Source: Dioscorea cayenensis subsp. rotundata
Lineage: Eukaryota > Streptophyta > Magnoliopsida > Dioscoreales > Dioscoreaceae
Assembly (NCBI RefSeq): GCF_009730915.1
Contig: NC_052475.1
Location: 31,247,016-31,311,015, forward strand
DNA length: 64,000 bases
Reading direction: 5' to 3'
The position numbers and the translations under genes were made by a program. Shown here piece after piece: positions 3,796-53,668 of the stretch. Position 1 is the first letter of the stretch, and each line of letters opens with the position of its first letter. The notes beneath the pieces are model-generated. The model ran no database searches, had not been told where the DNA came from, and saw nothing but the letters and a program-made list of their open reading frames with translations.

Positions 3796-4926
3796 GGCTT
3801 TAGGGATTTGGGGCAGAAACGGCTCTGAAACAGCTTGAATTGTAGGATTTTGAGGGCAAAGCTTGGGAGTTGAGAGGAAGGGGGTTGTGGCGCTGCACAT
3901 CAACGTGAGGGTTTGGATTGAGAGGAGTTCATGAGAGGAGAGCGGAGCGTGGAGAGAAGAAAGAGAAAAAAGAGCCGCCTTTGAAAACAATGAAAAGCCC
4001 CTCTTAAACCCTTGCTTTGGTTTGTACTTTGTAGAGAGGGGGAGAGACGAGGGCCGGTGCCTAGATATTTGGAAAGGGTTGGACCGGACCGGACCGGACC
4101 AAAATGAACCGGTTTTGAGTTGGTTGCTTATAAATTTTGATAATTTTATAATTTTTTTTAGATATTCATATTAAAATAATTAATGTGTGTATATATTACA
4201 TACATGTTTAGTCCCACATCACCCCGTGCTTTGTGCTTTGTTGAGAGCAGAAAATTAGAACCTCTATAGGACACCAAGGTAGTATTAATATTTTTTTATT
4301 TAAATAAACGGTTAAATCATTTTAAAAAAATAGAGATGTACAAGATACACAATCACTACTCACATTCCTAAAAATATATTTTCATTTATAATTCAAACTC
4401 TCACCGTTTATGAAAAATTCTATTCAAAAATCTGAATTCGTCTATAGTTTAAACTCCCATTATTTATGAAAAATTCTAATAAAAATCTGACAATCAATAA
4501 ACCACTTGGTCCTCGACAGATATATCATTAATGTTCAAAAAGCTTCGAATTGCCTGCACATCAGTAAATCTAAGCTTCACGAGAATATGCATATACACCA
4601 ATTCAGTGAATGAATAAAATATTCCTCAACGAGAAAAGAATTGTCATGGTTAACAAAGAGATCATCACTGAACAATAGTACGCTTGCATTTTGATATCAC
4701 ATGAATTCAAACAAGGCGCTTTTTGGAACACAGTTTCTTTAAATAATTTATTAAGCATTACCATGATTTAAACTAGCAGACTACAAAAACTGGCATGTTC
4801 TCATTCAGCTCTATTGTATAATTCATCTGTTTTGGAAACACAGCATCATTCCCTCCTTATAACCTTCTTTGGCCGTCCACCGGTTCACTGGCAAGAAAAG
4901 ACTTCTGTCATTTTCAATTTCAGAAC
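3796..4926. other. Spacer between RPOT 5' end and HSP90C 3' end
   Basis: AT-rich spacer holding the RPOT leader/promoter (right up to about 4080) and the 3' UTR side of HSP90C (left of 4927). It contains four GGACC units (4081-4100) and, around 4390-4490, two imperfect copies of a roughly 55-bp AT-rich segment containing TTTATGAAAAATTCTA. No supported gene. Confidence 0.6.
4081..4100. repeat. (GGACC)4 short tandem repeat
   Basis: Four perfect pentamers, GC-rich in an AT-rich setting, about 285 bp upstream of the chosen RPOT start. Confidence 0.9.
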
Positions 4927-7900
4927 TCAATCTTTCCATGGATCATTCTCAGTCCTCACTTCAGAGGGCTCAACCACCTCCGCATCTGTGGGTTCGGAGA
5001 ATGCTGTTTCAGAGCTAGCTTCTGAAATAGGTTCGTCCCCCTCGTCCGTCTCTGATCTTCCCCATCTCCCACCAAGAGCAATAGCCATCATTTCGTATAT
5101 TTTGTTTCCTAACTCAGCCGGGCTGTCAGGCTGTAATGATTTGTTTCGACGAAAGAGAAGATAAGATTACAATTGTCCAAGAATATGATTAATGCAGTTT
5201 GTGAAAGGCTCACCGTGAATCCACTCGAGATAAGGGCAGTGTCATATAATAGATCAACAGCCCTCTGAGCTTCTGTGCTGCTTGGATCGTTCTTGCAAGC
5301 AGCCTGCCAATCACAACATCAACTTATATTTGACTGGGCCTTCCATTTATGTCTAAACTAACAAATGGGTTTATATGCTTTTTTTTTTTTTTTTACTAAT
5401 TTCAGTTATTTCCATGAAACATTCAGGTATAGCAGAGTATTAATCACAGAACTCTTAAAACAGGAAGCATGTGAAAGAATCTCACACTCAAGTCTTTGAT
5501 GATTGGGTGATCTGGATTGATTTCGAGTATTCTTCTTCCTCTCATGAACTCCAAACTAGAGGTATCACCAAGTGTCTGCGCTCTCATGAGCCTGAAAACC
5601 ACAAACTTTTATTTCTTGATGGATACAAGGCATCATGAAAAAAAACCGAAGGAAATCAAGCAATAACACAGCTTAAAGGTGTATGAGAAGAAAATGAAGT
5701 ATAAGATACCTTTCCATGTTTGCAGACCATCCAAACTTGCCAGAAACGAGAACACAAGGTGAAGAGCTAAGCCGCTTTGAGATTTGAACCTTTGCTACCT
5801 TGTCACCAAGCTGCTGCTTTATCCAATCACATAGAAGATTGTATTCTTGCATGCTTTCTCTTTCTTTGACCTCATCGTCATCACCTACATTGGAATCCTT
5901 AATTCATTAAACAATGCCAAATAATGAATGATGCTGATCTAATCTGAATTAAATTCAAGATCACAAACCTAGTTCTAGATCCTCCTTGCTAATATCCACA
6001 AATTTCTTTTCTTTGTAGGTCTGCAAGTTCTGGATTGCCACCTCATCAATGGGCTCAACAAGGTACAAAACCTAAAAACGAACTTTTGAGATCCAACAGA
6101 CTTCGACATATATATTATTCAGAAAACATCAAAGCATATGCTTACTTCAATATCCTTCTGGACCAACTTCTCCAAGAATGGGGCAGTTTTGGCGCTCTTT
6201 AGGCTGTCTGTGGCCAAGTAGTAAATAGCATTCTGACTCTCAGCCATATTCTCAACATACTGATCAAGGCTTATCATATCCTCTTCACTCTTTGAAGAAT
6301 GGAACCGAAGTAAAGGAGCAAGACGCTTATGATTTCCGGAGTCCTCTATACATCCCAACTTGAGAAGCTTACCAAAGTTCTCCCAGAATTTCTTGTAATC
6401 CTGATGCAGGAACAACACAGGAAAACAAAATTTCTTAAACGAAGCAGCCCTCTCTATGCACACAAACTAGGGAAATTACTCCATACCTCTTTGTCATCTT
6501 TTTCAGATATCTCCTGAATCATATCAAATGTTTTTCTGACAAGTCTCTTGCGCATGATTCGCACCTATAAACAATATTATGTAACAATATTTTATATATC
6601 AAACATACATTTCACATTCTGCAAGTAATATGAATAATGTCCATTGACTCACAATTCGGCTCTCTTGAAGAATCTCACGTGAAACATTAAGAGGAAGATC
6701 ATTGGAATCCACCACACCTTTCACAAAGCTCAAATATCGGGGAAACTGCAATTTAGATCAAAATCAACAATGTGAGCATTACCAAATAATAAAAAACATA
6801 CAAGAATATAAAAATAATGGCAACCACTGCACATAGCAGCCAAAGATTTAGCAACCAATGTCCTTAGCAAATCTCTCATACTTACCAGTTCACCATCGAA
6901 ATCATCTGAAATAAAAACACGTTTGACATACAAGCGTATATTCTTTGTCTTGGGGTTCACTATATCCTCGTTGTTTAATGGTGCCATTCCAGGAACGTAT
7001 AGTACACTTCTGAATTCAACCTCACCCTGAAAAAGTTTGAAAAAGTTACCATCAACAGAAAACACTCCAAAGTCATGTGGTCACAATTAAAATATGCAGA
7101 CCTCCGTGGAGAAATGACTGTATGCAAGAGGATCCAAGAATTCATTGAATGTCTTCTTATAGAACTCATTATATTCATTTTTCTCAACCTCCTTTGAATT
7201 CCGCATCTGTAAAATGACAAAATAAAATAAAATAGAGTCAGCTAACTTTACAGTTCACATTTTTACTAGAATTCGCAGGCATGCTGCTCGAGCAATTTCC
7301 AAACACAGAACTTGGTAAATTCAGAAAATTCAAGTGAACCCAATGGCAACATAAGTTGCATCCATACTGACAAGACAGGGACTCAACACCTACCCAAATA
7401 GGTTTGGTTTCATTTGCCAATTCCCAGTCCCAATATTTCTCAGTGACAGTTTTCTTTTTCTTATTAGTCTCGTCCTATAGAGAAAGCAAGGAAAAGATTA
7501 ACTTCATCCAGGTAATTAAGTAAACAATAGGTAAACCAAATACCAACTGCTAACCTCTGGTTTTACTTCTTCACCTTCCTTCGGTTCTTCCTCCTCCTCA
7601 ACCTATCCAGTAACATTAAAAATTCAGTCAAAATATCATATGCCAGGCAGTCCTCATAATCAAATTGCTGTTATTGGACTGCACTGTTCAAACGAAATTT
7701 AGTGGCAAATAGCGGGCCAAGTCTGTCTCTCACCTCTACAGTCCTTGACTTCTCTTGCCATGTGAAAATGGGAAAGGCCACAAACTGTGAGTAATTCTTA
7801 ACCAGACTCTGAATCCTTGATGGGTCAGAAAATTCATACTTATCATCTGGCTGCAGAGTGGACAGAAACACAAGTCAGGCGAGCAATCAATGAAACACTG

Positions 7901-12179: not shown

Positions 12180-15100
12180 CTACCCCTCAAATCCTCGAGC
12201 TGTAGGTCTGAAGCAGTTGATATTGCACAAGCTGACTGACCGCATGATTTCTCCAAACCTGCCACCATATGATTTACTGAGTTAGTATTAACTATTTCGT
12301 GACATATAAAAGTAAACTAGGCAATTGTGTTTATCAAACCGATCAATGCTATTTCTTGGCTTCTCGTGGTTGTCCATATGGTTGCTCTTCTTGTCTGAAT
12401 TGTCAAGGCTCTTCCTCGGCTTTTCCTTCTTTTCTGTGCTGTCTATTGGCTTCTCTCTTTGATCTGTGCTATGCCTATGCTTCTCCTTATTGTCAGTCAT
12501 TGGTGTTGACTTACTTCCTTGATCTGTACTTTTTCTTGAAATTTCGAAACAACCAATGCTTGGCCTAGGTGAATCAGAGGGATCAGAGCTTTTTGTAGAT
12601 TCATTTCGAGTGGCAGGTGATTGCTCCATGGCGGATATGAACTTCTTAAGGTGCCTTATGTATTCTGGGAAGAGTTCCAAATCACAGTGGTTCCCACCTT
12701 TAACCCATAAAGGCTCATATTTCTCTTTGCTTAACTCCCATAGCTTCTTGCCGTGAGAGAAATCAACTACATCATCCTCTGTCCCCTGGAAATACCAAAA
12801 GCAGTTCAAGGAACTTGTGTTTCTGGAAGTGAAAGGAAATCTACTTCCAAAGAATTTCTTGATAAATAAATGGTGAATGATTTATTTTTCTTGCATTCTG
12901 ACTCACCAAGTCATGATCCAAAAATGGCAAGAAAATGCAACACAAAGGGAAAGTCGTAGAATTTGTGGAGAAAAATTATGTTAATATCAACAACTCAGTC
13001 CTCTACCAACATAAGGTTGAAGAGAGGATTGTATTATTATGATACTATCAAATGCATAAATGTTCGCTAAACACCATTGGCATCCTAGGATCATTTCCCG
13101 ATTTCAAGGCTTCCCATTTCTGGCAACGCACTTAAGGCAATAGCCAATTCCTGAATAAGCTCAAGAAGTTGGCAAAAGTCACAAGCCTTTCTATTACATT
13201 TGAGTGATATAATATTAGCACTTTTAATAAATGATTTTGCATGAGAAAAAACAACAATTTAAAGCTTGGACCAAAGGATCTTCAAAACAAAAGATAAAAT
13301 GTCCTTCCAACAAATGCATCTGGGTTTATAAATTCCTATCCACGAAGGAAGCACATAATCTCATCATATACCTTTAGTATAAACCAACCTACAGCAAAGT
13401 TTTCAAATATCGTCAATCATGGTGGTATGCTTCCTATGCCTACCAAAATATCTCTATCCACAGGAAATTGTACATGGTGGTGTGCTTCCTATGCCCACCA
13501 AAATATCTCTATCCACAGGAAATTGCCTGTGTGATACATTTAGCTAACGAATGAGACACATAACTAATGTTGATAACGTCCTTAGATCTTGCTAACTCAC
13601 ACAGATAGCAGATTCTTGCAAAAATTCAGAAAGACAAGGTATCAGCATTTGGAAAACATAAATGCAAAAAAATTTTGCAGGGTTATCCCATAAGAAACAT
13701 TTAGCATTTAAATGAGTCTCGAGAATCAGTAGCAATTATTAAACAATAAAAATGGCAAACAACCAAGTTTCAGAAACATTACTCACATGAATAACTAACA
13801 CTGGGCATTGAACCTGCGGAATTTTGTCTATATTCTGCAATAGAGACAAAGGCGCATATTCATGTGTTAATAACAAAATAAACCAACTTATAATAATAAA
13901 GGAAAAGGAGAAATTTGAACCTTGTATATGTCAAACCAGTAAGTGTGCTTCAAAGGATACATGACACGCAGTCCAGACAAGATGGGGCTATGTAGAACAA
14001 CGGCCCTTAAGCAAGGCAATCTCATAGCTAAATCCAAAGTCGGGCCACTTCCAACTGATTGTCCATATAAAATGATATCTTCTTCATGAGCACCATAAGT
14101 CTCCAATAAACATTTATAAGCAGCCTCTATATCTGCATAAGTATTCTGTTCACTTGGCTGAAAGCAATGATAATAAAGATGGAATCATTTATCACATCAT
14201 ACGATGGCATTTTACAACAAATATATATACATATATACATATATATAAAGATATTATCTCAGTGATTCAAGTCACCTTTCCAGAAGACCTCCCATAACCA
14301 GAATAATCATATCTGCAGGAAATATTTTCTATATTAGACACCAAATCTTTCAAGGAAAAAAGACCAAGAATCTACTGAAGTACTGATTTACAAACCTGTA
14401 ACCAAAACATGCGCCATAAAAACTATGGGCTGATATCATAAATGCATTGGCCTTAAAAAACTGGGTTAATATCATAAATGCGTTGGCCAGTTTGGTCTTC
14501 TCCTAAAAACAACTAACCTGGACCAATCCAAAGTTTAGGTGGAAAGTGAAAAAACAAAAAAAACAAAAACAAAAAAAACAAAAACAAAACAAAACAAAAC
14601 AAAGAGTCTACATTTTCTACTGGAGCCACCACCAACCTTGGATTGGGATTTAAAAATTGCTAATTGCTAGGAAAGAGTGCACTTATGATGAACACTGACA
14701 TGAACAACAAGAAATTTTTTCCCATTATATATGAGATTAAATTTTGGATATTTGGAAATTATTCTACTATTACAATCGCATCCTCTAAAGTATCCTCATA
14801 TCTTCATCTGATACTTCAATAAATCAGGCACATTCCTCAAGGGATTGAATCATTTTCTGCACTCTAATTTACCTTGTCAGTAAATCCCTAACTAAATTCA
14901 GTATGATTTATAATTTTAAAATTCCATAATATATTCCTTTCATCTTTCCTTCTCTGACTTTTGCTTCTAGATGTTCATATCCATTTACCAAAAAATCGAG
15001 TAACAAAGAAGCAAAACAAACCAACCTAGAGAAACCCAGAGTCCAATCAAGTATAATCCGACAGCCAACCCAAATTTGTCACTTGCAAAAGCCAACAAAT

Positions 15101-17131
15101 GGACAAGCTAAACTTGCAGCACAGTCAATTGATCCTGAAGCAAAAAGACTACAAGTCATATTCTAAGATAAGAAAATTTGAACCACAAGGCATATTCAGT
15201 TCCACCAAATCTTGGTTTACAATTTGCCAGAAGATGATTACATTTTGTTGTGGAAAATTCAAATCCAAAAATAAAGTTGAACAGAATACAATACTGATAC
15301 AAATAAAGAAAATTTTTTTACCAAATTCAACCATGTGTCTCCTTATAATGGCTTATTAAAGCACAAAATTATCTTTTCCTTAATAAAAGAACCAAGGTCC
15401 ATTATTCAATTAATTCTCTTCTTTCTACTTCATAAATAAAGCCTATGCCGTCTTGTGCAGATTTAAGCCAGCAACCTTGCCTGTCAACCTTGCCCGTTTC
15501 ACGGTTCTCTTTTCATCCAAAACTTGGCATCTCCAATTAAAGCAACCACCCACATTAAAAAAAAAAAAAGATTTAAGCCAACAACCTTGTGCATTTTCTA
15601 GTTCTCTTTTCATCCAAAATTTGGCATCTCCAATTAAAGCAACCACCTACATTGAAAAAAGAAATCCTTTGGCATTGAAATAGATAAGTTACGTCTCCAA
15701 ATACGCCACTGAGCAATGCTGCAAGCCTTTTTGTTGTTTAAATCATATAATAAAGGAAGTAGTTCATTACAAACAGCTGGAGTACTAACTAGTTTTTCAA
15801 AGGCATCAGCTCTTTTAAGAAATTAAAAAAACAAAAAACAAAAGCACCCATCACCCTGTGTGTCAGATAAATTTATCTAAAGAGCATAAGGCACTTTTCA
15901 TCAACTAAAGCATCCTACTGAAAATCAACCCTGCCTTTATTTGAAAAGAAGAGCATGGAATATATAATATCTTAAACCAAATCCCCCAAACAAGGTAGAT
16001 CAAAAGGATAAAACTAAACAAAGAAATGTGCTGCTAGTGTTATCCAAAGGGCAAAACTTTTCTATTATGGCAGCAACTAAGCATCTATCCTGACCTTTAC
16101 CAATCTGTTAGATAATCAAAAATAGAAAGCACAAAATCACACCAACTAAACCAAAACTTCGAAGAAGAAACAAACCATAAAGGAATGTCTTGAAGACAGT
16201 ATTTTGTCTTAGGTTCAATATCACAGTCTTTGATGTAATAACTAAACAATGCAAAGTTAGCTCCCATAGATCACATCATATGTACATTATACCTAAGGCT
16301 CAAAAAAGTTAGCAGACCATTAATGCAGTTCACCAATTACTTCAATCAAATTAACATATAAACAATAACAATCTGTTGCTTTTGCAATTCTACACCATTT
16401 AAGTCTAAAACCCCTAAATTTCATCAACAAGAAGAAAAAAAATTATATATTTACCCATCAATCTCATCAAATAAAGCGTAAAAATCAAAGATTTCACATA
16501 AGCACATAACCTAACAGCCACAGATTAATTTTCACTTAAGGGAACCCAAAAATAACTCGTAAACTAAATTCTCAAAACTACACGAATTCAATCAGACCAA
16601 AGATTACCAATAGAGGGGCGAAAACAAAAAAGAAAAATAGTTTGAAAGGTTATGAGTCAAAGCAAACTGAAATCGAATTAATCACATAAAATAAATCATA
16701 AAAACCTAAACTTTAACCAAGTTAGCAACCCAAATAATTCATTTCCACCCACAAACAACCACACAAACATCAAAAGAAAAATCAAAGAAAAAAAAACAAC
16801 AACAAAAAGAGAATGGAAATGTAAGACCTCACCCCATAAGATTGACGCGAAGGTGCGTGCTGAGCTCGGCGAAGAGCTCGGAGAGCTGGCCAAGATCCGC
16901 GGCGTTGCCATGGGAATACAACACCGTGAGCTTCGCCGACGCGTGCCGGACATACACGGCGACGATCTCGTTTCCCCTCCTCGTTTCCAGAATCCTAACC
17001 TCCGCGTTTCCCACCCTTCCCGGCATCCCCTCGAGCGTGAGCCTCCCAACCGACGCGTCCACACGGTACGAAGGTGGCGTCGGCGGGAAGAAAGCGAACC
17101 TCGCCGCCAACGCCGACGCCATGCCCCCCAT
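12180..17131 (-). CDS. ABHD17-like alpha/beta hydrolase (probable thioesterase)
   Basis: Serine hydrolase of the ABHD17 group; animal members remove palmitate from membrane proteins, and the plant role is inferred. Six exons: 17131-16833, 14312-14276, 14157-13921, 13834-13787, 12785-12340 and 12258-12180, joining in phase to 381 residues. The N-terminus MGGMAS fits an N-myristoylation site (Gly2, Ser6), and [11 protein letters not shown] is typical of the plant family. The fold is visible in [30 protein letters not shown] and the nucleophile elbow YGQSVGSG (Ser146). The charge-relay residues are Asp211/212 in [10 protein letters not shown] and His240 in GGNHCDLE. A hydrophilic tail of about 120 residues repeats KEKxxxSTD/EKPxxSxD-like units. 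The last intron starts GTTTGATA, a weak but phase-consistent donor. Intron 1 is about 2.5 kb. Confidence 0.93.
13418..13527. repeat. 55-bp tandem duplication in intron
   Basis: Two near-identical copies starting CATGGTGGT at 13418 and 13473, lying between hydrolase exons 4 and 5. They differ at only a few bases, so the duplication is recent. Confidence 0.85.
15461..15665. repeat. 110-bp tandem duplication in intron 1
   Basis: Copies begin ATTTAAGCCA at 15461 and 15571 and share TTCTCTTTTCATCCAAAA and GGCATCTCCAATTAAAGCAA. The first ends in an A-run; the second carries a short internal deletion. They lie in the long first intron of the hydrolase gene. Confidence 0.82.
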
Positions 17132-18783
17132 CCCTCGCCGGAGCTCGGTGGGGAAACGCGTTCCCTACGAGAGGCCTCGCGTTTCCATCTCCGACGACGA
17201 AAAGGATCGACCCGTTGAAGAAGAGGCATATAACGTGCACTTCTTCGGTTCTTATTTGTTAACCAATGCCTTTTCTCACTTACAACCTCCTAAATTTTTA
17301 TATTATATATAAGCCCTTGTAAAAGATTAATAAATTAATTGCGTGTAAACAACATATTTATATAACTCCCTAGAATATCTATTTGTACATGCATTTACGA
17401 TGATTAAGTTTTAACATTATGAAACAGTATATGTGGATCATGAGTTTTATTCTTATTAAAAAAATATATAAAATTTCTTGTGACAATGATTTCAAGATTT
17501 TTTTTAATTATTAGTTTATTGGTTGGCATGTTTTGATGAAAAGAAAAAAAAAGTTTATAAAAAAATAAATAATCAATATTAGACTATCCCAAAAAATAAA
17601 GTATTCACTAACATGTAAGAGCTTCAAATTCCACCTAACTTATGATAAGTTTAATATGTAAAAACGGTGGAAGATCTTTCGTGCACAAGGTACTATAGGG
17701 TTCTCGGTGTGTGTAGAAGTAAATTTGCAACCCAATCTTTGTGTTACAAGTCTGAGTATATAGTTGGATGTTTAATTTTCACTCATATACATGTTTTTTT
17801 GTTATTATTTATCGTATTTGTCAAAAATAAAAAATAAATATGTAGAAAAAAAATATTTTAGTAAAATAATAACAACTCAAAGAGATATTTTCTCCAACTT
17901 TTGTTAATCCAAAAAATTATAATTTATATACAAATATATTAAATTTTTTAATTAATGAGGCATATATAAATATGGAACATGACAGGGTGATTTGTAAAAA
18001 GTAAGGGCCCTCATAAAATTAGAGAAAATGTCGGAGATGATTTTCAATTTTACAGGGGGTATTTCAAAAATTCATATATAACTAGAAAGCAGGTACAATA
18101 AAAGAAGGGATGTTTGATTAATTTCCATTGTGTACGTGGCAATTTATTATTAGCCACAATTTTTATAAAGCTCATGACTAGTTTTTTAAAGAATAAAATA
18201 AAAGACAAATAAAAGTGATGAGATGTTGCCACGTGTCAAGCAGAGCAGGATAACAGAAAGCTATGTAGACTGACGCCGACTGAGTGGAACGGCACGTGAA
18301 TGCTCGTGAAGGCACGTGCTCTTCCAAATTTAATAATAATTTATTTGACTTTTTTAAAAAAAAATATGTATGCAACTAGTTTTAAAAAAAAATTTGCTCT
18401 TCCAATTTTTCTTGCTTTTTGTTTCGTGTGTTTTTATTGTGTTGGTTGTTTGTATTCAGTGACTTTGTTTCTTTTTAATAAAGCTGTGGTTTATCCACTT
18501 TTTATCAAAAATTTAGTCCGAAATAATTTTATTTTCGTTCTACTTAAATTACATATGTACCCTGAGAAATTAGGTGTTCACTTATATATCCTTTAAAAAA
18601 ATCATATTTATGAATATAAGTTTATTTTTAAAAACATTTCAATTAATTTAAATCTACCTGATGCAAATTAAATTGAAATTTGCTGGAATATTTGATTAGA
18701 TTGTAATAATCATATGTTATTTATTCAAATTCTTGTAATTTGAAAGTGGAAAAAGACAAGTTCGTTGGTCCTCTCATATATAT
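17132..18783. other. Spacer upstream of the hydrolase gene
   Basis: AT-rich, no supported gene. Three CACGTG G-boxes stand at 18230-18235, 18293-18298 and 18313-18318, about 1.1 kb upstream of the hydrolase start and far from any other start. Confidence 0.55.
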
Positions 18784-18792
18784 TTACCTCAA

Positions 18793-18991
18793 GAGTAATG
18801 TTATATAGAACGAACAGATCACACGAAACTAGCCACACGAATGATGTGGCTGGTGACGTGTGATCTGTTCTCTTTTTATTTTATTTAAAAAATAAAATAA
18901 AAAGAGAACAGATCACACGTGATCTCTCTTCTCTCTCTCTCGTATGATCTCCCTCTCTCTCCTGTATGATCTCTCTCTCTCTCTTGTGACT

Positions 18992-19028
<37 letters not shown>

Positions 19029-19688
19029 TGAGTGTGTGCTCCCATCCCGGGAGCGGGGGAGACAGACGGCGGCCGGGAGTGGGGAGATGGACGGCAGCCG
19101 GGAGCGGTGGAGAGCAGCGGCACGGGAGCGAGGGAGACGAAGGCGGCCGGGAGCGGGGAGACGGACGGCCGCGGAGCGGGGAGAGGGACCAGCCGGGCGG
19201 GAGTGGGAGACGGGCAGACTAGCTGGGAGTGGTGGAGATAGACGGTGACCGGGATGGGGCCGGGAGCGGTGGAGACAGAGCAGTGGCCAGGGATGGGGCG
19301 GGAGCGGTGGAGACGAGCAGTGGCACCGGATGGGGTGGGAGCCGGGGATACAAAGCAGCGACCGGGATGTGGCCGGGAGCGGGGGATACAAACGGGGGCC
19401 GGGAGTGGGGGAGACGGGACGAGGGCGGTGAAGCAGGGAGAGCAGACGGGGACCGGGAATGAGGAGGCAGACGGGCCGGCACGGGAGCGGGGAGATGCAC
19501 GGCGGCCTCGAGCGGGGGAGACCAAGGACAGCCGGGAGCACACACTCAAACAAGAGAGAGAGATCACGTGTGATCTGTTCTCTTTTTTTTTTTTTAAATT
19601 TAAAAAAAAAAAACAGATCACACGTCACCAGCCACATCATTCGTGTGGCTGGTTTCGTGTGATCTGTTCGTTCTATATAGTATTACTC
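18793..19688. mobile_element. Non-autonomous Mutator-like element with long TIRs
   Basis: The ends GAGTAATG...(18793) and ...ATTACTC (19688) are inverted repeats of each other. They are flanked by a perfect 9-bp direct repeat, TTACCTCAA (18784-18792 and 19689-19697), the length typical of MULEs. Inverted similarity continues inward, with an indel, through GTTTGAGTGTGTGCTCCC near 19025 and its complement near 19535, giving long terminal arms. Each arm also contains a nested hairpin: GAACAGATCACACG (18812-18825, 18906-18919) against CGTGTGATCTGTTC (18857-18870), mirrored at 19567-19580 and 19656-19669. The left arm ends in a (CT)n run near 18990-19024. No transposase is present; the core is a GC-rich minisatellite. 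Confidence 0.87.
19050..19540. repeat. GC-rich minisatellite, about 25-bp unit, inside the MULE
   Basis: Roughly fifteen diverged units resembling GAGCGGGGGAGACGGACGG plus a CGGCCGG-like spacer. The block is strongly GC-rich against AT-rich flanks. It opens long Pro/Arg/Gly-rich frames on both strands, which I take as artefacts of composition. Confidence 0.82.
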
Positions 19689-19697
19689 TTACCTCAA

Positions 19698-20360
19698 AAA
19701 GACCACCAGCCCTCAAAGTTTATACATGTTAATAAGTACGTAAATTATTCATCATTATCTTTGTTTTTCTCTACTCTAGTGTTCGCTATGTTTAGTTATT
19801 CTTTTCATTATTGACAAACTTCTAGCTTTTTTTCTTATTTTATGTTATTTTTTATAAGTCTGGACATGTGATGTCTTGTGTTCTTGATTTTTTCTTTCAA
19901 TCAACCAAATTTATCTCTCCTGGGTCCAGCCTATCATATTTTGACACATGTCTCATGTGATGTTATTATATTTTTTTATTGTGATTGGGACAAGTCAGGT
20001 TTTAATAGACTAGAAGCAGGGTATTCTCTGGTTCCAAAACCAGGGGAGATGAGTTCCAATCAACCATGGTATATCCACTTTTATTAGTTTATATATATAT
20101 ATATATAAAGGTTTAGGGAGACCCTCAACTTGAGACTAGATCATATTACTTAGGTAACTTCTCAGCCCAAAATTTCACTACTGAGACTAGAAAACTGAAC
20201 TTCTTTCATTAATTTATAAATATGCTCCTTAACATATATATATAATTTGGAAACAACTGCTGTAGATGATATTTCCAAGCAAAACTTAAGGAACAGTCAT
20301 GCAAGCTCAGGTCCATATATAGACACACACATAAATATATATATATATATATATATATAT
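19698..20360. other. Spacer between MULE and peptide locus
   Basis: AT-rich; includes the likely 3' UTR of the peptide gene and an (AT)n run at about 20338-20360. No gene seen. Confidence 0.6.
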
Positions 20361-21720
20361 CTAAGGTTTGTTATCATGGCCCTCTGATTGTAAGGGTAGA
20401 TGATTGTTGATAGGAGGATGATGGTGAGCTCTTTCATGGTAGTCCTTGTTCAGCATTTTCAGAAGTACTTCAGCTACACCTTCATAAACATCTTCTTCTT
20501 GGAATGATGATGATGATGATGCTGATGATGATGGTTCATGATAAGAAATCTTTGCCACCTTTGTAGTATTTGATTGCTTCTTAACATCAATATCACTCTC
20601 TTTAAGTTTCATTTTCTGATCAGTTCTTGATGAACTTTTAATCTTCTTACTTTTGCAAGTATGATCCTGTGTCATATGCAAAGGAGAAGAAGGAGCAGCT
20701 TCTTATAATTAATTAGGGTTTTATCAATAATTGTATACATTATGGCTTTATTTAATTTATATAATTTGTAACATTAATTAATCTAGTTGCCATATATTCT
20801 TTTATTTTTAGAATACAGTTACATAAAATGAATAATTTACCTCATTATTATCCAATGAGATAAATGGCTCCTTTGAAGAGGTCTTGGCCAAGCCTGCACC
20901 AAAAGAATAATAACTTAAATGGAACAATAAGTATTTATTATTTGCAAGTAATTAATCCTCTTCTTCTTGGCAACCAATTAAGTTCAGAAACAAGATCACA
21001 AGCTAATTAATTAGATTGATGAACATAATTAGAATACAAGTACAATGCTTGGATTTTCTCTGTCTCTCTCCTATATATGGTCATCTAACTAGCTACAAGT
21101 ATATATACTTAAAAAAAAATTTAACTATAATTAAAAAGCCAAATGGCTTAAACACCTTTCTTGATCACATCTAGTTGTTCTTTGGAGGATGACTTTTGGG
21201 GAAATGGTAATCAGAACTGATGAAAGGGAGACTTCTCTTACTTAGTTCACAATCTAAATTCAACTCCTCTTTTGATCCTCCATGCCGACATTTCGAAAAA
21301 GACGAAGAATAAGATTTCACTTTCATCACTGTCTCCACAACTTTCTCTGATTTCATCTTCCTCCCTTTGATACCAGAAGCACTTGTGATCATTTCTGTAT
21401 TACTGTTTCTAAGTTTCTGAAAATTAACATGGATAATTAATTAACTAATAAATTATTATGCAAAACAAAATTGAATAACTTCTTTATATATATATACCTC
21501 ATCATGAGTCTGGACTTGTTGATCAGGCATAATACTAACTACAAAGTAAGATATGAGGAATATAAACTTCAGGATTAGTGTTTAAACATAAATTTAAAGT
21601 GCATGCAAAAAAAGAAAAGTAAATAGCTTTACCTTTAGGAAGGGCAATGGCTTGTTGTAGAGGGACCAAAGAGAGCAAAAGGCAAAGTAGTAAGGTTGTG
21701 CATCTTATGGATTGTGCCAT
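20361..21720 (-). CDS. RGF/GOLVEN-type secreted peptide precursor, module B (alternative end)
   Basis: Predicted second product of the locus. The signal-peptide exon (21720-21633) joins in phase 1 to exon 2B (20893-20841), then in phase 0 to exon 3B (20666-20361), giving 148 residues. The N-terminus MAQSIRCTTLLLCLLLSLV is a clear secretion signal. Exon 3B is Lys/Ser-rich, then acidic (QEEDVYEGVAEVLLKML), and reaches DYHERAHHHPPINN, resembling the RGF/GLV/CLEL mature peptide (Asp-Tyr for tyrosine sulfation, HPP, Asn-Asn end). It has one extra residue between DY and HPP and a 13-residue tail. No separate ATG plus hydrophobic stretch exists between 21170 and 20894, so module B must borrow exon 1 or be a remnant that lost its own. 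Confidence 0.6.
21171..21720 (-). CDS. RGF/GOLVEN-type secreted peptide precursor, module A
   Basis: Root meristem growth factor / GOLVEN / CLE-like precursor; known members are secreted, tyrosine-sulfated peptides controlling root meristem size and gravitropism. Exons 21720-21633, 21538-21498 and 21416-21171 join in phase (1, then 0) to 124 residues. MAQSIRCTTLLLCLLLSLV is the signal peptide. The middle is a variable basic propeptide with SKRS upstream of the mature region. The protein ends exactly at DYHFPKSHPPKNN followed by TAG, the 13-residue family pattern DYx5HPPx(H/N)N. Such precursors are usually about 80-160 residues, so length fits. Exon 1 may also splice to module B further downstream. 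Confidence 0.85.
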
Positions 21721-23367
21721 GACTTTTTAATGACCACTTGCTTTGTATATATGTTTGTCATGTAGCAATGCTTTATAGCAAAAACAGGAGAAGAAGATCA
21801 GGGTGTTTTATGTATTAGCTTGGTCCTTATAAAGAAGAAGTTTAAGGGTGCATGGTTGATTATGGGTCAAAGCAAGGACTCCAACATTTCTCATCTTTCT
21901 AATAAATGTATTACTAACTTGTAAACAAAGTGTTCTCAAGTGTGTCCTTTCACCATTTGACTATTGTCTTGTTTATACTTGTGTACTTGGAAGTACTAAA
22001 AAAAGTAATATCTAATGCAATGATGTGTTCAAAGTTCAAAGAAAGAAGAATACATTCTTCAAGGTAGCAAAAGATAAAAATGATCAATATTGAATATGGT
22101 TGATTAATTGATGTATATCATATTCTAAGTTTGTAAAACATTAATCACAAAAATAATACATTCTTAAGATTAAATATAGAGCTTTTGAACTTAAGTTTAA
22201 TATCTAGCGTTTATGTGATAATATTAGGAGAAAGGTGAACCACGAGAGAGAGTCAGGTATTTTACCGCTAGGCTACTACTGTAATTTATATAGCAATTAA
22301 TATTATTGATTTACTGATTTTTAATTAAAAAGTTTAATAAATAAAAAAACATATAATTATATAATAAAAATAAAACGAAAATATAACTACTAGTAGTAAT
22401 TGTAGAGATCGATGGCGGTGAGTGTGAAATGAGGACTTGATGGGGGCCGTCATGCATGCAACGAGGTTGAGCTTTTTGCCAACCCAAAGGTTTCTAGGGT
22501 TTTGCTATAACTTATTTTAGTATTATTATTATATTATCATGTGAGACTCCAGTTCCAATATATGTTCTAATTTCTAGGGTTTGGTCCTCGTTGCTTTTTT
22601 GCTTTAAATTTGTAGGTAATTAATTAAGACTAATGCAATGAAGTACACTTGAAGTTACAAACTTACAATACAACCATGGCTTGTTTTGGATTCAGATGGG
22701 AAAACACACGCACCATAAAAATAAAAAATAAAAACGGAGAATAGTAATCACAAAAAAAAAAAATATATATATATATAATTTTGTTACATAATGATATTTA
22801 AAAAACAATTTAATTTAATATCAGATACCCTTTAATATGCTTCATGTGCATTCCAATTTTTGACATCAGATACTCTCAATGTCCCATATTTTATTTATTT
22901 ATTTTTATTTTAACATATATATATTGAAAAATATAGAATAGCCACATGATTGGTTCAAACCCTCAAATTTTAACTAACCTTTGAGTTATAAGAGAAATAA
23001 AATAGTAACTACCATATTATAAGATATTTAATGATTTTATAAAAACATTATTTTGGTTGTTTTTATATTCAATTTATTATTATTATTATTATTCTTACCC
23101 ATTACTCTCATGCAAAGCTGGGTAAACTCACCCTAGACTCAACATGGAGTCTAGAGAGCAAGCTATATACCCGGCCCTAGCGAAGCTTGCTCATGCATGG
23201 AGTTTTTTTTTTTTTCTTTGGTTAAACCACACATATTAAAAGTCAAAACAAGAGTCATAGATATGAGTTACATAAAGAGGGGGAAGATTAGCATATAGTA
23301 TCCACTAGGCATGGATAATAACAGAAAAAAAAAAGACATATGGAAGACAAACACAACTTGAAAATGA

Positions 23368-23398
<31 letters not shown>

Positions 23399-26300
23399 GA
23401 CACAAAAAAACTATGGCCTTATAAGAAAAAAAAAAAAGTAGCTTCTTCTAGTAGATTAAGCGAAAGACAAATGAGGATCAATTGAGACCTTATTTAGATG
23501 TAAATTTACGGCCAAGATCATTTACACTTAGGTTAAATATCAAGAATTTTAAGCTTAGCTTCACTACATTGACTTGCTCATCTACTTTTATCCTCTTTGG
23601 TTTAAGAATTACAATAATCCGGGCACATAAAAAACTGATAATTAATATTAGTCATAATGGTAGTTGTCCAGCAATATGTAAAGTTTAAAATCCACTTTTT
23701 TTTTCTCTCAATGCTATAAATGATAACTCTAGCCAGGATGTCCCAAGCATCATGGGCTAAGTCGATTAGATAAACTATTAAAAAAAAATGGTGAAATAAT
23801 GTTTCTAAAGTTAAAAATTTACAAATAAATGTTGAAAGACAAAGAGATGTGATTTGAATATAAAAAAATACAAGAATTTACATGTACTTCTTCCTCTTTG
23901 ATGTATTGAAGAAATAAAAATTAAATAGATATTTTTAAAAATTTAGCACTAGTTACATTTGAGGATTGCACTCTTTGGTGTTTTGGAAATACGTTGGCAA
24001 ACAATAAATTATAAAATAAATAATTTCAACATATGTTTATTATGGTTATTCAGTAGTTTTGGTAAACTCTCCATCTAATGTAAAAATAAGATCACTTAGT
24101 TTGTCCTTTTATTATTCTGCATTAGATTTTTAAGATTACATATTTGTTTTATTTATATAAAAAAGTACACACCTTTGTTTAGTTGTATCTAAGCAAAAAA
24201 TTAACTGAAATAACATTCTGATTATCTAATGATTAATATACATATAAAATATATGTTCCAGGGTTGTCAGTCATATGATAATTGGCAGAGAATAACTGAG
24301 TGATAACAAGATCAATAATATCAAGGTTGTTTGTTAATTATATTAGAAAAAAAAATTAGTACCCTCCACCATTAATCAGGGCAACATTCACAGATGCATT
24401 GCAAATGATCATTTAATATTTTATATTCAACTCCACTCTATGTAAGGACCAAGTAACCATGTTAGTTCTTGACGCTATGATTATTAGTAGTAGTAATGTT
24501 ACAGTTCTATTTGGTTTTCAAAGATCTTTTATTTATATAAAGCGTCGAAAGTCAAAACCCTTGTCATTAATAATCTACAATAGTTCCATATCTTAATAAA
24601 TAAATCTATGAACTTTTGAGATTGATAAGATGCAAAATAAATTTACCTTCAAAGCCCTTCCATCTTTTAGAAAGAACCGAGAAAATTACAAACATAATAA
24701 AATAACTGAGATGCCACTTTTAATAACTGGTTGGTCCCAAAAAACAAAAAATCTTTGCTCAAGTGAGCTCACATCTAACTTAGAGAACCTAACAAATTCA
24801 TGTGTTTACTCGTCAAAGACCGGATGTGTTTTTTATTATTATTATTATTAAAAAAGAACTCAATTTATATGAGAATATATTTGTAATGGTAGTAGTAGTA
24901 GTGAAAATTAGTTGATTGAGTTATTGAATGAGACTAAAAGTCTATTTAGCATATTGAAGAGGGACTGTTAGATCATAACATTAATTTTGACGATTAATGC
25001 GTCGATTCAGAAAATTACAACAATGAAAACCCAAAATAAAAATAAATAAATAAAAACATATGCATAGCCATGAAGTGCTGCCTAACTTTGTTCTTCGGAT
25101 CCACAATGAAGCCTTAAACATAAAATATTAATAACTCATAACCATGCACTCAATTGAGTTTAAGATTAAACAAGAATGAAAGAAGACACTTTTGAAAACT
25201 CTTCAATTAAGACTTACTTCTGTTCTTTAAAATATATACACAATGTGTTGCTTAACGAGCAATCCATGGCTGGAAACTTATATGTATATTTTAACTTTCC
25301 CAAGGGGTCTCACAAAACAAAGATGAAATAAATACATTTAATTAATAAAGAAATGAAGCTTTGAAGTTTTCATATAATAAAAAATAAATAAAAATAAGTG
25401 GGAAACATGAGCAAGTGATTGAAAGTTTGAAACTCCCCAAAAATGGCAAGAGTATGAAATCAAGAGACAAAGAACATGGCCTTGGTTGGTGTTCTCTTGA
25501 TTCAGGGCACCTTGAATCACCCACCCATTCACATTTCTTATTATCACTAAACCATAATCAGAATCAAGTTCACACTCCAAGAAATAGATCTTTAATTATG
25601 TTTTGGAATGCAACATATATATATTATTGATTACTCACTTCTGTCCAAATTACCTAACATTAGTTACCACTTTTCAAAATCCTTGAATGAAGTTAATTTA
25701 ATATAAAGAGTGTCTGACTGTGTATGAATCAATGGAGTAAATAATTCCAATAAATTAAAAAGTAAACTTGTCATATCATACTTTCTTAATTTTATGAGTT
25801 TTAATAATATTTTTAATTTTTATTTAAAATTTAGTTTAGAACATTAGTTATAAGATTTTTTTTACGAAAGCCACTTGGTTCTTGTGGTTGACGGTATAAA
25901 TAAATCTCTCATATAATGTGGAGAATGGTGAGGGTTTAAATTCTCATGAAAGAAATTAACTCACGAGTGATGTCGCTATTCATACTCACACATTATAAAA
26001 GTGGTTAGTACTTGGTCCCGTACTACATAACGGGTGTTTTAGTAAGAAAATTTTTATTTTTATATAAAAATTGGTTTATTAAGAATATAATAATTTATTT
26101 TCAAAATTTATCCTTATATTAATAAAAAAAACTTTTATAAATAGTAATGAGAGAAAATTGTTGAGTAAAAAAGAATTAATAGGATAATAATTGATTTTCT
26201 TTTTTTTTTTGGTAAGAGAGTATTTCAGTCAAATACTCGATATTAAATATTTTTTTTAATTTCACTGCTCAATTTTAAAAAAAACTTATAAATATATTTT

Positions 26301-27780
26301 TACATTGTTATTGATTGTCTAAAATAAAAATAAAAAGAGAGAAATTTTTTTTTTTTTCTTTAAAGTAGAGGTTGAAATCTCTCGTTTGTCCACGTTAGGA
26401 AAAAAAAAAACCCTCCTTTTGAGAGCATGTTCAAAACACGGAACGCACAACGTTAATGTTTATATATAGTGTTTGTTAGTATAATTTATATGAGCAAGTC
26501 AGAAAGGAAAAAAAGTTGAAAAGTTGGTTATGCGGAACCTTTTGTACATATCAACAAGTTTCAAAAACAGTTACTTTGACTACCTGTTTTTAACGGACCA
26601 TGATATATATATATATATATTTATATTTAATCCATGATTTTGAAATCTTAAAAATAGTTAATTACTTTTTGATTAGAATAAGATTCATTTTTATTTATCT
26701 AAATCAATTATTGTGGTTTATCCACATTCTAAAAAGTTATTAACCAGTTAGCACCACATGAGCTAAAAATTGTCATGCAAATCTAAAAATTTTGCAAAAA
26801 TCATACTAGGCTAATAAGTCCCAATTATTGTACAATTTTAGAGAGAAGAGATACAACTCCTCTAGAAAACCCGTATGGGACCTGTTTAAACAGTATTGCA
26901 AACAATACCTAGTCTAAAAACAACGTGTGAATACTACTACTATTACAATGCCATGATATAAGGTTTTGACATTGTGGCTCACCGCTATGTGACAATCAAT
27001 TATGCTATGTAATTCTTGTAAAATAATATTGATGAAAATATGTGGACTAAAAATACCAAATTATAATGTATTATTCATTTTAGTTTTTCTCTCGCCAAAT
27101 GAGATATTGTGGGATCAACTCTCCCCACACCATTGGTTGAGGTTAGTGCATTGTTCGGCTCATTAAAAGCAAAAAAAAAAACAATGCTACAATTGAGCAC
27201 GCGTAATCTGAATGTTTGTATTAACCGATTGAAACTATTTAATCAACAATAACACGGTGAAAAAGTGGGATGTACAATATTTTATTAAAACCGTAGATCG
27301 TAATCGTAACAGTAACATAATCAATATGAACCGTCAAAATTTATTTTTAGTAGATCTATAAAAACTTATTTATAAACCACAACACATCCAAATAAACATA
27401 TTTGTCTCACTGTGCTCAGTTACGGATGTTCATAGAGCATATGTAGTTGAGATATATAAAAAGATTTAATATAAAATAAAATATATATTTAATACGTTGA
27501 AAAACAATTTATTATTACATGTTGGAAAAAATAAAAAAATATGCCAATAATACTCAAATGTACGTGAATAATGAATACTTTTTATTTTTAATTTAGATAA
27601 ATTATGTGTCAGGGATCTATATAGATATGGAGCTATCAACCCATGCCCTCACTGTATATGAAGTAAGTTTTGAACCACCTTCTCAGTATGGATATGAATA
27701 TTCTATACAGGTGATCCAGTGGCTATAGATAAAAAAGTTGATGGGTACCTACTTTCTTATATATAAAGAGAAAACATCAT
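21721..27780. other. AT-rich spacer of about 6 kb
   Basis: No supported gene. The right-most few hundred bases before 21720 on the minus strand form the peptide-gene promoter. A modestly structured patch lies near 23100-23200, where CTAGACTC pairs with GAGTCTAG and AGCAAGCT with AGCTTGCT. Otherwise I see homopolymer and AT-repeat sequence, and short frames that look random. Confidence 0.6.
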
Positions 27781-27807
27781 CTGTGGACATTCTACGAATG
27801 TCCACAG
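27781..27807. repeat. Perfect 12-bp-arm hairpin
   Basis: CTGTGGACATTC, a 3-base TAC loop, then GAATGTCCACAG: fully self-complementary. It has neither a bacterial-type terminator role nor a Helitron CTRR end beside it; it probably belongs to a MITE remnant. Confidence 0.8.
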
Positions 27808-27939
27808 ACAAGCACAGTAACCATTAAGCAGCTACAACGAGAGTTTGTTCAGTTACTGTGCACAAATTGATTGAATGGTTCAGATCAAATTACTGTGCAT
27901 CTAACTTTTTACTGTACAACTATTTATAAGCACATTAAA

Positions 27940-28987
27940 GGTCTGTTTGGATGCATAGTAAATTTTTTCATAGGAATTTTATTTCATAGGATTCAAAAAT
28001 GATTTATATGGAATTTACTACAGGAAAAATTTCGATAGATGGGTGTTTGGATGTGCATAGAAATTTTTCCATAGGAATTTAAGTTTGAAAATGAAATTAG
28101 CCATTAGAGTTTTAAATAACTTTCTTTAGCTCTTTCTAAATAACTTTTTAGTCCTCCAAACTTATAATAATAGCATACCTTAGTATGAAAAACATAAACA
28201 AACAGGCTGAAGAATTGATCTCTTCCAAACAAGATATGTAATTGTCACAATCCTGATAGACATCAAAGACATACAAAAGTATTGAACTAAATTTCTCAAC
28301 AAAAGAGAGGCCAACTCTATCTAATCTTTGGCATAATATTATCACCAATTCTATTAAATAACATCTACTCCGCAAAGCAACACAATAATTCAAAGTTTAG
28401 AAAAGAAGAAGCCAACAAAATACATCAATTTCAAACACAGCTAAACAAACAAAAATCTCACCACACAAGTCACTTCAAACATCCATAGATTCTGACAAAG
28501 AAAAATAGTCTTGAGCTAACTGCATGAGCAAACACACACAAACCTACTTGCATTTCAATCTATTAAAACAACTTCATTAAACAAACAAAACATAGAATTC
28601 TGAGAACAGAATGAAGAATGTGAATCTCTCTCAGTCATTTTCACAAATACCTCATCAACAATAATATTTTTTTTTAAAACAAAGGCAACCAGACAGTAAT
28701 TCAACAACAGAATTAGTACAAATACCTCATCTTTGCACTACTTTATTGATTTCCATGCATGATAACCAACAAAGACCTAACAATCAAACTAATGTTTCCA
28801 AGAAAAAAACAAACCAACATCATATATAAAGCAAAAACAATCAATCCACACATCTAAACCCTTGTCAGCAACCAGAGATTTCAAAAGAAATCAACATAGA
28901 AACAGTGGTCAGTAAGCAGAGATTTATTTTCATAATCACATGAATTAATATTATTCCTATGGGATTTAATGGTACCCAAACAAGTTC
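27940..28987. mobile_element. Candidate MITE/TIR element with TGTTTGG ends
   Basis: Left end GGTCTGTTTGGATGC at 27940 and right end GTACCCAAACAAGTTC (complement GAACTTGTTTGGGTAC) ending near 28987 are imperfect inverted repeats. Subterminal TTCCATAGGAATTT-like blocks at the left also recur inverted near 28955 (TTCCTATGGGATTT). Such ends are common in plant PIF/Harbinger and hAT MITEs. I could not find a convincing target duplication, so boundaries are tentative. Confidence 0.4.
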
Positions 28988-29239
28988 TATACTATTCATG
29001 ATATACTGTAGAACAGTTGAATTTTGACATTCATTGATTTAAAATCTACTACGAACGTTGGTAGAGGATGCATTCTCATATATAAATATTGCTTGTTCTA
29101 AATTTCTAATCAAATACTAAGTAATAACATTTGCCTCGTGATCAGTCTAGGTCATCACATCATAAGAATGCTTTTCCCGAGGCATCAGACAACGTGTGTG
29201 ATGATGAGTACATTCAGAAGCCCGGGCACGAGCGAACAC

Positions 29240-29323
29240 CACGTGAAGCTTGTAAATGTTTGGACTCGCACTTGCCGACTCATCGGTGTCCGCACGTGAC
29301 ATCACCCACGTGAACTTCACGTG
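29240..29323 (+). promoter_or_regulatory. Cluster of four G-boxes upstream of BIM
   Basis: CACGTG occurs at 29240-29245, 29293-29298, 29307-29312 and 29318-29323, about 220-300 bp before the BIM start codon. The encoded bHLH has the residues that read G-boxes, so self-regulation or regulation by related bHLH/bZIP factors is plausible (inference). Confidence 0.6.
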
Positions 29324-29543
29324 ATCCCACTTGTTTAACAGCGACCTCTCACTTTTTCAGCCGTCCATCTAGTCCCAAACTCGAATCTCAAAGATCAGGG
29401 CAATAACCCCATTTGGCCCTTTGCGTCCTGCTTCTCTTCTCCTCGTCTCGCATCGCCGGCGGCGGAGATTGCGATTCATGACGGATTTTGAGGGTTTCTT
29501 GCTCTGGAATTCGTGAAGTTTGAAGCTTTTTTGGGTGGGATCG

Positions 29544-32500
29544 ATGGAGGCGGCGTCGGATTCGGGGCGGGAGTTTCCGGAACCTGATGAACCTTTCGAG
29601 GGTGAGCCATGGAGGAGAAATGGCTCCTCTCGCAAAGGTTTCCTTTCTGGATTTTGTTTTTTCGTGTGCTTTTTGGTCGTCATGCGGGTTTTCTTGGTTG
29701 GAATTAGTTTTCTATGGTGGGATTTTACTGTTGTTGTTTAAATGGTTTGGGACTGGGATGCAGGGGAAATGATGATGAGAATGGATGGAGTGGGGAGGGA
29801 TCAGAAGTCGGGAGAACCGACGACGCCGAGGTCGAAGCATTCGGCAACGGAGCAGCGCCGGAGGAGCAAAATCAATGAGAGGTGAGTTCGTATCTGGTAA
29901 TTTTCCAGATTTTCTTTTATTATTTAAAGTCTGGTGGAAAGAAAGGATTTTTATGCTCTATAATTCAATGAATTTATCGAGCTGGCTGGTAGTATACTTG
30001 TTTGACAAGGGGTTTCTAGTGCACGCGGCTATAAATCAGTCCGGTCAGAAGGGATAAATATAAAATAGAACTAATCTACGTATGACTGGAATATATTGGC
30101 AAATTTAGGTAAAATGTACTCTCACTGCAAAATGTGCGAGTTTTTATGAATTTTTTAGGTTGCTAATCAGTTTTAGTGTTTGATCTCGAGGATTAAGGAC
30201 AATTGGAGTTAATTCACGGGCTTCGGAACCATATTTTAGTTTGAGAAAGTTAAGGCCTGCATTGCCACACAGGATCTGAAGAAGTACAAAGTGAGCTCTG
30301 AGTTATAGTGAAGAGTGATTAGAAAAGGGTAGAATGAAGATGTGCACAGTAGGAAAACATAATCAGTCCCCAACTTTATGGTACTGATTGTTTCCTTTTG
30401 CATTAGCTGTTGTTCAGTAGAGGTCCTAGTATTTGAAATTAAACATATTAAATTCTTCCTTGTCTGCACTTTTGCCAATGTATGGGAAGAATGTTTAAAG
30501 ACTATCGCTAATTGTGTTGGCTTAAGTGAAGGATTCTTGTTTGTAGCATTATTCATGAATCGGATTTTAGATTCCTAGGAATGGTGTGAGTTGGATGCTT
30601 GTTGCTAGAAATATGCTTCTATTCTTTACGGAGCTGTCTCTGCATCTGACAGTTGATGTTTTGTTTAGATGATGATAACTAGTCTCCCCTTCTTAGTTTT
30701 GTGTTTTCTTTTGTTAAATCTGATCCGCTTGACGACTTGAGTATTCTTTCATATAGTGACCAAATTATTGTGTTTCTGCTGTTTCTTATCCTTACCTAGA
30801 ACTTCAATTTGCAATTTATAGCAATTCTGAGGTTGTTAAACTTGTTGGTTTTATCCATGTGTCATACTCCCATAATTTGTGGTTCCATTCCTTCATGTGA
30901 TCGACTATTTTCTGAAGACTGAATTGTTTCTTTTGTTTCAGTCAACGAGTTCCTGTAAATTTTAAATATCTTGTTCACAAAGGAAATGTTATAGGCTCAT
31001 TTACTGAAACAATGAATTAAAGTTTAATAATAATGTTGACAATTCATAATGCCGACCTCATAAGCAATATTGCATGGATGTGGTGTTTTTCTGCTAACAG
31101 GTACACAGAATGCTTTTAATGTTAGTATGCCACTAGTATCATATGGATTTTGGTTCACAAACTATTTATGCATTTGAGGGATTTGTTATAGTTTTAAACT
31201 AGTGTGAAAGAAAATATAGATTGATTTCTATTTTTTCTTTTAATAGTTTGTCACATGTAGTGGACCTTCTTCAGTTTCTCCTGATGAGGAAAAGATGCAA
31301 ATCCTCTTAAAAGCATAAAAAGATAATGCAGAAGGCTTTTAGCTCGTAGTCATATTTAGGTATTATTTTAAGATGAATATGTTTTAATATTATTTGAAGT
31401 TTGATTCAAGTGAATTTTTATCAAGCGTCTAGTTTATATTTGTTTTTTTTTCTATTATTTCATTAAAGCCTGTTGTAATTAAAATTGTTAATATTCTATA
31501 GAAAAATGGTTTATGTGGATGTGAATATGTGATGGGGAAGATTAATTAAAAATGGGTTTTGGGTTTTGTTCCTTAGTGTAAAGATATAGGTAAATTCAAA
31601 GGAGGAGCAACTTTGAAATTCATTATTTGCATGTCAGCTGTATAAGCTATTAAAATGGTGAAACCTTTTTGTTGTTATATATATTTTTTTCTTGTATTTA
31701 TTTGTAAAGGTCCTTGGTTGATTTGGTCTTCAACGTCTGGTTCTCTTCTTTTCTGGTAATTTAGTTGATAGAATTTCCAATGCTTTTCTGTATTGACTTC
31801 TTGGAACATATCAGTTTTCTTGAGGGCAAGCATTTTTTATTTTATTTTTTGGTTGCTTTTAGTAATTTATGTTTTGAGCATGAGCCAAAAGAAGATTCGT
31901 GTATATAACTTAAATGGCTAGTAAGAGAAACGGTCTAATTTGTTTAACTTTTTAGGACCTGTTTCTGTACCATATTTTTATGTACTTATGATGCATTGCA
32001 ATCCGACTTGTAGATTCCAGATTCTTAGAGATCTCATACCCCATAGTGATCAGAAGAGAGACAAAGCATCATTCCTTTTGGAGGTAAAGTTTTGTTTTGT
32101 TTGGACTGTTAAAGTATATTACTTGGCCTAATCATCCAGCTCTTCGGAAATGTTCTGTTTTTATCCCTTATGCCCCTTCGCAGGTCATTGAGTACATTCA
32201 CTATCTACAAGAGAAGGCTCAGAAGTACGAGTCAATTCAACCAGGATGGATTCAGGAAAATGAGAAATTGGTTCCCTGGGTAACACTTAATGTACTCTAT
32301 TTATGTGCCATGTGATGATATGCGTAATTATATTTGCATATTATAGTAAGTTTTTTTATGCCTCCACCTATTTGTTGTCTTGAGATGATCTAACTAGTTA
32401 ATGTGGTTATTTATGACTGAAATCAGGGGTTGGTCTGTCCTTGACCAATTATGAGGTCTTGTTTCTCACATAGGCAAAACAGTTCTCTCTAGTTAGAGAA

Positions 32501-40397: not shown

Positions 40398-40410
40398 TTG
40401 GGAGGAAACC

Positions 40411-40456
40411 AAACCCTAGAATCGGAGGAAGAGGACGGAGTTGGGAACTAGGGTTT
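40411..40456 (-). promoter_or_regulatory. Telobox pair upstream of mTERF4
   Basis: AAACCCTA at 40411 and the inverted TAGGGTTT at about 40449 sit within 60 bases upstream of the start codon. They are common plant promoter elements; activity is inferred. Confidence 0.4.
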
Positions 40457-53650: not shown

Positions 53651-53668
53651 AGTTTTCTCTAGCTAAGC

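Follow-up and report, generated by a model that had tools for sequence, protein, structure and literature searches.

Known Systems and the Present Locus

Among the genes of the RGF/GOLVEN (GLV)/CLEL family of peptide hormones, alternative 3′ ends that place different peptides behind one leader have already been predicted in spruce, namely for CLEL14/CLEL22, CLEL18/23/24, CLEL15/25, and CLEL20/26 (Strabala et al. 2014, PMC4016512). The locus described here lies on the minus strand, at 21720-20361 of a 64,000-nt stretch of the Dioscorea cayenensis subsp. rotundata genome (NC_052475.1, 31,247,016 to 31,311,015; hereafter the window), and its anatomy suggests an arrangement of the same kind: it is probably one gene of the RGF/GOLVEN/CLEL type, with alternative pairs of terminal exons that would give two RGF-like hormones.

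As in spruce, a single leader is followed, in frame in either case, by 3′ exons that encode different CLEL peptides, and introns are present, like in the conifer CLEL genes predicted in that work; the layout of signal peptide, variable region, and C-terminal peptide also agrees with the one given there (PMC4016512). As for the differences, the switch in spruce CLEL14/22 is a donor within the terminal coding exon (PMC4016512), whereas here it comes soon after the signal peptide, with a separate second exon for each ending; moreover, the spruce cases have some expressed sequence tag support, whereas the present case is predicted from the genome sequence.

A second group of counterparts is found in gymnosperms, where Group H and Group R peptides occur as pairs of RGF peptides behind similar N-termini, with alternative splicing as a possible explanation (Furumizu and Sawa 2021, PMC8329595). 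Those pairs combine H with R, whereas both peptides of the present locus have H before PP and are H-like. In their own searches, these authors recognised such pairs solely in several gymnosperm lineages; they regarded independent origins as possible, and posed the frequency of the arrangement within and outside gymnosperms as a question (PMC8329595). Regarding the family at large, the locus shares the DY...P peptide domain and the introns found in most of the RGF genes surveyed by Fang et al. (2021, PMC8708909). That survey (203 genes, 24 species) gives one RGF domain per RGF and reports no tandem RGF duplicates in the monocots studied; here there are one leader and two endings, still with one domain per precursor. 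A splice variant is mentioned among 11 Arabidopsis GLV proteins (PMC4526923), and no flowering-plant gene with alternative terminal exons carrying different RGF peptides was found in the literature, with supplements and most subscription journals outside the search.

Exon Layout and Reading Frames

The locus comprises a leader exon followed by two modules, A and B, each with a second and a third exon:

21826..21831, minus strand: TATA-like TATAAG, 111 nt before the ATG, string match only
21633..21720, minus strand: exon 1, 88 nt, phase 1 out, donor AAAG/GTAAAG
21498..21538, minus strand: exon 2A, 41 nt, phase 1 in, phase 0 out
21171..21416, minus strand: exon 3A, phase 0 in, pro-region followed by DYHFPKSHPPKNN, stop included
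21174..21212, minus strand: RGF/GLV-like peptide A, DYHFPKSHPPKNN, directly before the stop
20934..20939, minus strand: AATAAA, possible polyadenylation signal for isoform A, between the modules, 46 nt ahead of the 2B acceptor
20841..20893, minus strand: exon 2B, 53 nt, phase 1 in, phase 0 out, acceptor TGCAG/G, donor GAG/GTAAAT
20361..20666, minus strand: exon 3B, phase 0 in, pro-region, DYHERAHHHPPINN and a 13-aa tail, stop included
20403..20444, minus strand: RGF/GLV-like peptide B, DYHERAHHHPPINN, 14 residues

The borders, phases, and motifs of this two-ending locus, first proposed in a preliminary description of the DNA, are confirmed: exons 1, 2A, and 2B have exactly the coordinates and phases claimed there, the joined frames are open, GT or AG stands at all seven borders (three donors, four acceptors), and each terminal exon holds a peptide of the DY...HPP...NN type, DYHFPKSHPPKNN in 3A and DYHERAHHHPPINN in 3B. 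Precursor A (exons 1, 2A, and 3A) is a stop-free sequence of 124 aa whose C-terminus is exactly DYHFPKSHPPKNN; precursor B (exons 1, 2B, and 3B) has 148 aa, is likewise stop-free, and continues after DYHERAHHHPPINN with the 13-aa tail HLPLQSEGHDNKP. Between 22000 and 21721, TATA-like strings occur four times, TATAAG being one of them. The intermodule AATAAA was set aside as evidence, the hexamer occurring 3.1 times per kb in 22000-29000 of the minus strand.

Eight exon paths were tried, and an RGF motif was reached by three of them: 1-2A-3A, 1-2B-3B, and the hybrid 1-2A-3B, which is open, keeps frame and motif, and encodes 144 aa. The frame is broken in 1-3A, 1-3B, and 1-2A-2B-3B, while 1-2A and 1-2B by themselves stop short of any terminal exon. 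Because skipping or combining the second exons breaks the frame, 2A and 2B are mutually exclusive by frame, in line with the earlier proposal, but 3B could be reached from 2A as well.

Strength of the Exon Borders

Splice sites were scored with a general table of the plant consensus, not fitted to this genome, and ranked among the minus-strand sites of the window. Both the strongest acceptor and the strongest donor of the locus belong to 2B: the former (score 7.58) is within the top 0.03% of AGs, the latter (4.53) within the top 0.71% of GTs. The remaining sites rank lower, with the exon 1 donor (3.76) in the top 1.59%, the 2A donor in the top 2.02%, the 3B acceptor in the top 2.24%, the 3A acceptor in the top 3.75%, and the 2A acceptor (1.75) in the top 5.82%. 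These values bear on the hybrid path: although it preserves frame and motif, a second product of the form 1-2A-3B, with 3A and 2B skipped, would leave unexplained why the best acceptor of the locus is at 2B and why 2B fits in phase, and we consider it very improbable.

The chance occurrence of an exon like 2B was evaluated with a strict setting (acceptor 7.5 and donor 4.5, just under the scores of 2B itself), in which a matching phase, a length of 20-200, and an open frame were required. Under this setting, neither strand of the 64 kb yields any open internal exon of the right phase other than 2B, and none of 3000 simulated intervals of 504 nt contains one. With looser acceptor/donor thresholds (4/3, 1.7/3.4, and 1.7/2), such exons occur in 10, 24, and 79 of the 3000 simulated intervals, and in 16, 28, and 48 of 1240 real slices of the window, which overlap and include coding sequence and this locus. 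Four of the 1240 slices pass the strict setting; these must contain 2B, because 2B alone solves the strict test in the window. In the real interval, 2B is the single solution at all four settings. A chance reading of exon 2B is unlikely, and the figures should be taken as indicative rather than as a formal probability, because the thresholds were chosen after 2B had been seen and the table was not fitted to this genome. From base composition alone, the chance of an open 3A is ∼0.002-0.003 and that of an open 3B ∼0.0006-0.0007. Finally, codon scores trained on 1770 codons rank the annotated frame first among the six in 2A, 3A, 2B, and 3B; the rank of the longer exons is largely owed to stops in their other frames.

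Leader Exon

Exon 1 encodes MAQSIRCTTLLLCLLLSLVPLQQAIALPK, that is, the signal peptide MAQSIRCTTLLLCLLLSLVPLQQAIA plus LPK, and its best 12-aa mean hydrophobicity is 2.89, as found by the hydrophobicity scan, in keeping with an N-terminal signal peptide. Cleavage is taken to occur after AIA, as read by eye with the -3/-1 rule; on this reading exon 1 is likely close to a pure leader, with only LPK after the probable cleavage site.

Rival first exons were looked for on the minus strand from 30000 to 20894, as ATGs followed by a 12-aa mean hydrophobicity of at least 1.9 and by a phase-1 donor with a score of at least 0. Exon 1 is the sole ATG that passes at these thresholds, and no other signal-peptide-like first exon with a phase-1 donor, which might have served as a separate upstream exon of module B, was found in the interval scanned. 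The three ATGs in the 277-nt gap between the modules open only 1, 25, and 7 codons, and none passes the hydrophobicity scan; between the modules, too, the claim that module B lacks its own start codon leading into a hydrophobic stretch was borne out. Module B could instead be a separate gene whose own leader or promoter was overlooked, with a weak hydrophobic stretch, a weak donor, another phase, or a distance of more than ∼9 kb; the scan is bound to its thresholds (1.9, donor 0, phase 1) and to its start at 30000, and two TATATA strings occur between the modules, though in AT-rich sequence. Against this stand the failure of all three gap ATGs and the fact that a leader farther away would need splicing across gene A, so that we regard such a separate gene as quite improbable.

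Peptides and Family Membership

Both DYHFPKSHPPKNN and DYHERAHHHPPINN start with DY and have P in the second half, as given for the C-terminal RGF peptide in PMC8708909. Peptide A fits Group H (PMC8329595), with 13 residues, H at position 8, and PP at 9-10; peptide B has H at 8 as well, but its PP is at 10-11 and its length is 14, the range given in PMC4016512 being 13-16 residues. The pattern DY.{3,9}[HRKS][PR]P.[NH][NH], composed after both peptides had been seen, matches the window twice when all six frames are read (21212 and 20444); 60 simulated windows of the same 64-kb length give no match. Tyr sulfation of both peptides and their binding to RGI/RGFR receptors are presumed.

Protein searches for relatives matched only P0001 and P0002, the unspliced open reading frames (ORFs) of 3B and 3A, and Pfam scans of these two and of both precursors gave chance-level matches only (best E 0.14). 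P0001 is a 104-aa ORF (20361-20675) present on 2 contigs; it carries the precomputed label PF27951.1, which the Pfam scan did not return. A pattern search of bacterial and archaeal contigs gave 52 matches and no relative, a scope hardly informative for a plant gene, and a 15-residue match with 67% identity in the viral-contig locus L001 was judged to be chance.

Within the pro-region of 3B, a triplet repeat of 10 copies (ATG on the plus strand, 20504-20533) codes part of a Ser-rich stretch; it could differ in length among plants and could serve as a marker.

Proposed Mechanism

A single promoter and a single secretory leader exon would serve the two alternative terminal exon pairs. Upon cleavage and polyadenylation after 3A, exon 1 would join 2A and 3A to give precursor A, from which DYHFPKSHPPKNN would be released; upon read-through, exon 1 would be spliced to the strong 2B acceptor to give precursor B, carrying DYHERAHHHPPINN. 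The 3′ end of isoform A would most simply form in the 277 nt that separate the 3A stop from 2B, and the weak 2A acceptor (1.75) against the strong one of 2B (7.58) could balance the nearer against the farther exon. Nearly the whole secreted product would be swapped, because exon 1 ends three codons past the likely signal-peptide cleavage site. We infer both the polyadenylation choice and the processing of the precursors. As for the latter, in peptide A the last residue before the stop is a free Asn, and the terminal Asn of RGF1 is reportedly met by the receptor RxR motif (PMC11756074); the maturation of peptide B would need the removal of 13 residues. SBT6.1 cleaves GLV1 in vitro after RRLR and RRRAL (PMC4983112).

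Several points weigh against two hormones from this locus. Peptide B is atypical, with 14 residues in place of 13 and a 13-aa tail after NN, and B has no RxLx or RxxL subtilase-type site, whereas A has RSLP, of the RxLx form; B may thus be matured differently, or may not be active. Among the proteins searched, 3B and 3A occur as unspliced ORFs, and no spliced precursor was found. The splice table was a general one, with thresholds fixed once 2B had been seen, and the codon scores help little: that of 3B, though the highest of its six frames, is negative (-5.6), and the own frame of exon 1 scores worst of six (-4.5). Lastly, transcription and the use of the 1-2B junction (21633-20893) are predictions from genomic DNA.

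Origin of Module B

Module B most likely arose when the 3′ portion of an RGF gene was duplicated in tandem, or when an entire gene was so duplicated and then lost its first exon. The intron phases shared by modules A and B are compatible with an old tandem duplication inside the family. With the peptide included, only 3 of 500 shuffles align as well as A and B; for the pro-regions without the peptide, 178 of 500 do. At the DNA level, the best match between modules A and B spans 15 bases (E 0.028), falls within AT repeats, and is unconvincing, and the search for a trace of a lost first exon (21900-21421 against 21170-20601) gave at best 16 bases at 87.5% (E 0.11), judged to be noise.

Such a duplicate, lacking first exon and promoter, could be a relic that is not expressed as a secreted precursor. 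The leader scan found no leader for module B, the length, tail, and missing RxLx or RxxL site of B would suit a relic, as would the triplet repeat within 3B, and tandem RGF pairs are reported in some dicots (PMC8708909); nothing in the literature consulted speaks against it. Yet 2B and 3B are stop-free, the 2B acceptor and donor are the strongest in the locus, and A and B have diverged to the point that their pro-regions match no more closely than shuffles do (178/500); a duplicate of that age would be expected to have decayed if unused. A relic is unlikely, if less so than an overlooked separate gene. The interpretation first offered for the locus, alternative endings behind one leader, finds partial support: with 2B and 3B intact, phased, and well bordered and no rival leader in the scan, the anatomy speaks more for alternative terminal exons than for a dead duplicate. 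Neither the spruce parallel nor the route from 2A to 3B figures in that first interpretation. The gene prediction is well supported, whereas the use of the 21633-20893 junction is an extrapolation from the anatomy.

Significance

A more ambitious proposal, which is tentative and somewhat short of probable, is that this single RGF locus of a flowering plant would act as a hormone switch: a leader-only exon 1 would be combined with either of two complete propeptide cassettes, the choice of splice or polyadenylation site would set which sulfated peptide is secreted, and the arrangement would have arisen independently of that in conifers. If both forms are made, the peptide ligand would be chosen once transcription has begun, and a single-gene knockout or a promoter reporter would conflate two hormones; an annotation with one isoform would miss peptide B. 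A mechanism predicted in conifers would then extend to (probably) flowering plants, suggesting repeated origin, a point that Furumizu and Sawa (2021, PMC8329595) had left as a question.

Neighborhood of the Locus

A bacterial promoter scan, a tRNA scan, and an Rfam search of 15000-30000 returned nothing, and have no bearing on the question of the two endings. Plant-type nuclear genes are closely spaced in the 64 kb, which fits a flowering plant better than a conifer, conifer genomes being large. Ten neighboring ORFs were scanned against Pfam, and five have a family:

3013-4170, minus strand: RNA polymerase N-domain, RPOL_N (Pfam)
6122-6466, minus strand: HSP90 (Pfam)
38934-40415, minus strand: mTERF (Pfam)
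45453-46340, plus strand: Dof (Pfam)
51896-53662, minus strand: RRM protein (Pfam)

The window has 1000 N in total, and an N run at 55062-56180 breaks the reading frames there; by eye, the frame beside it resembles a fragment of a retrotransposon reverse transcriptase.
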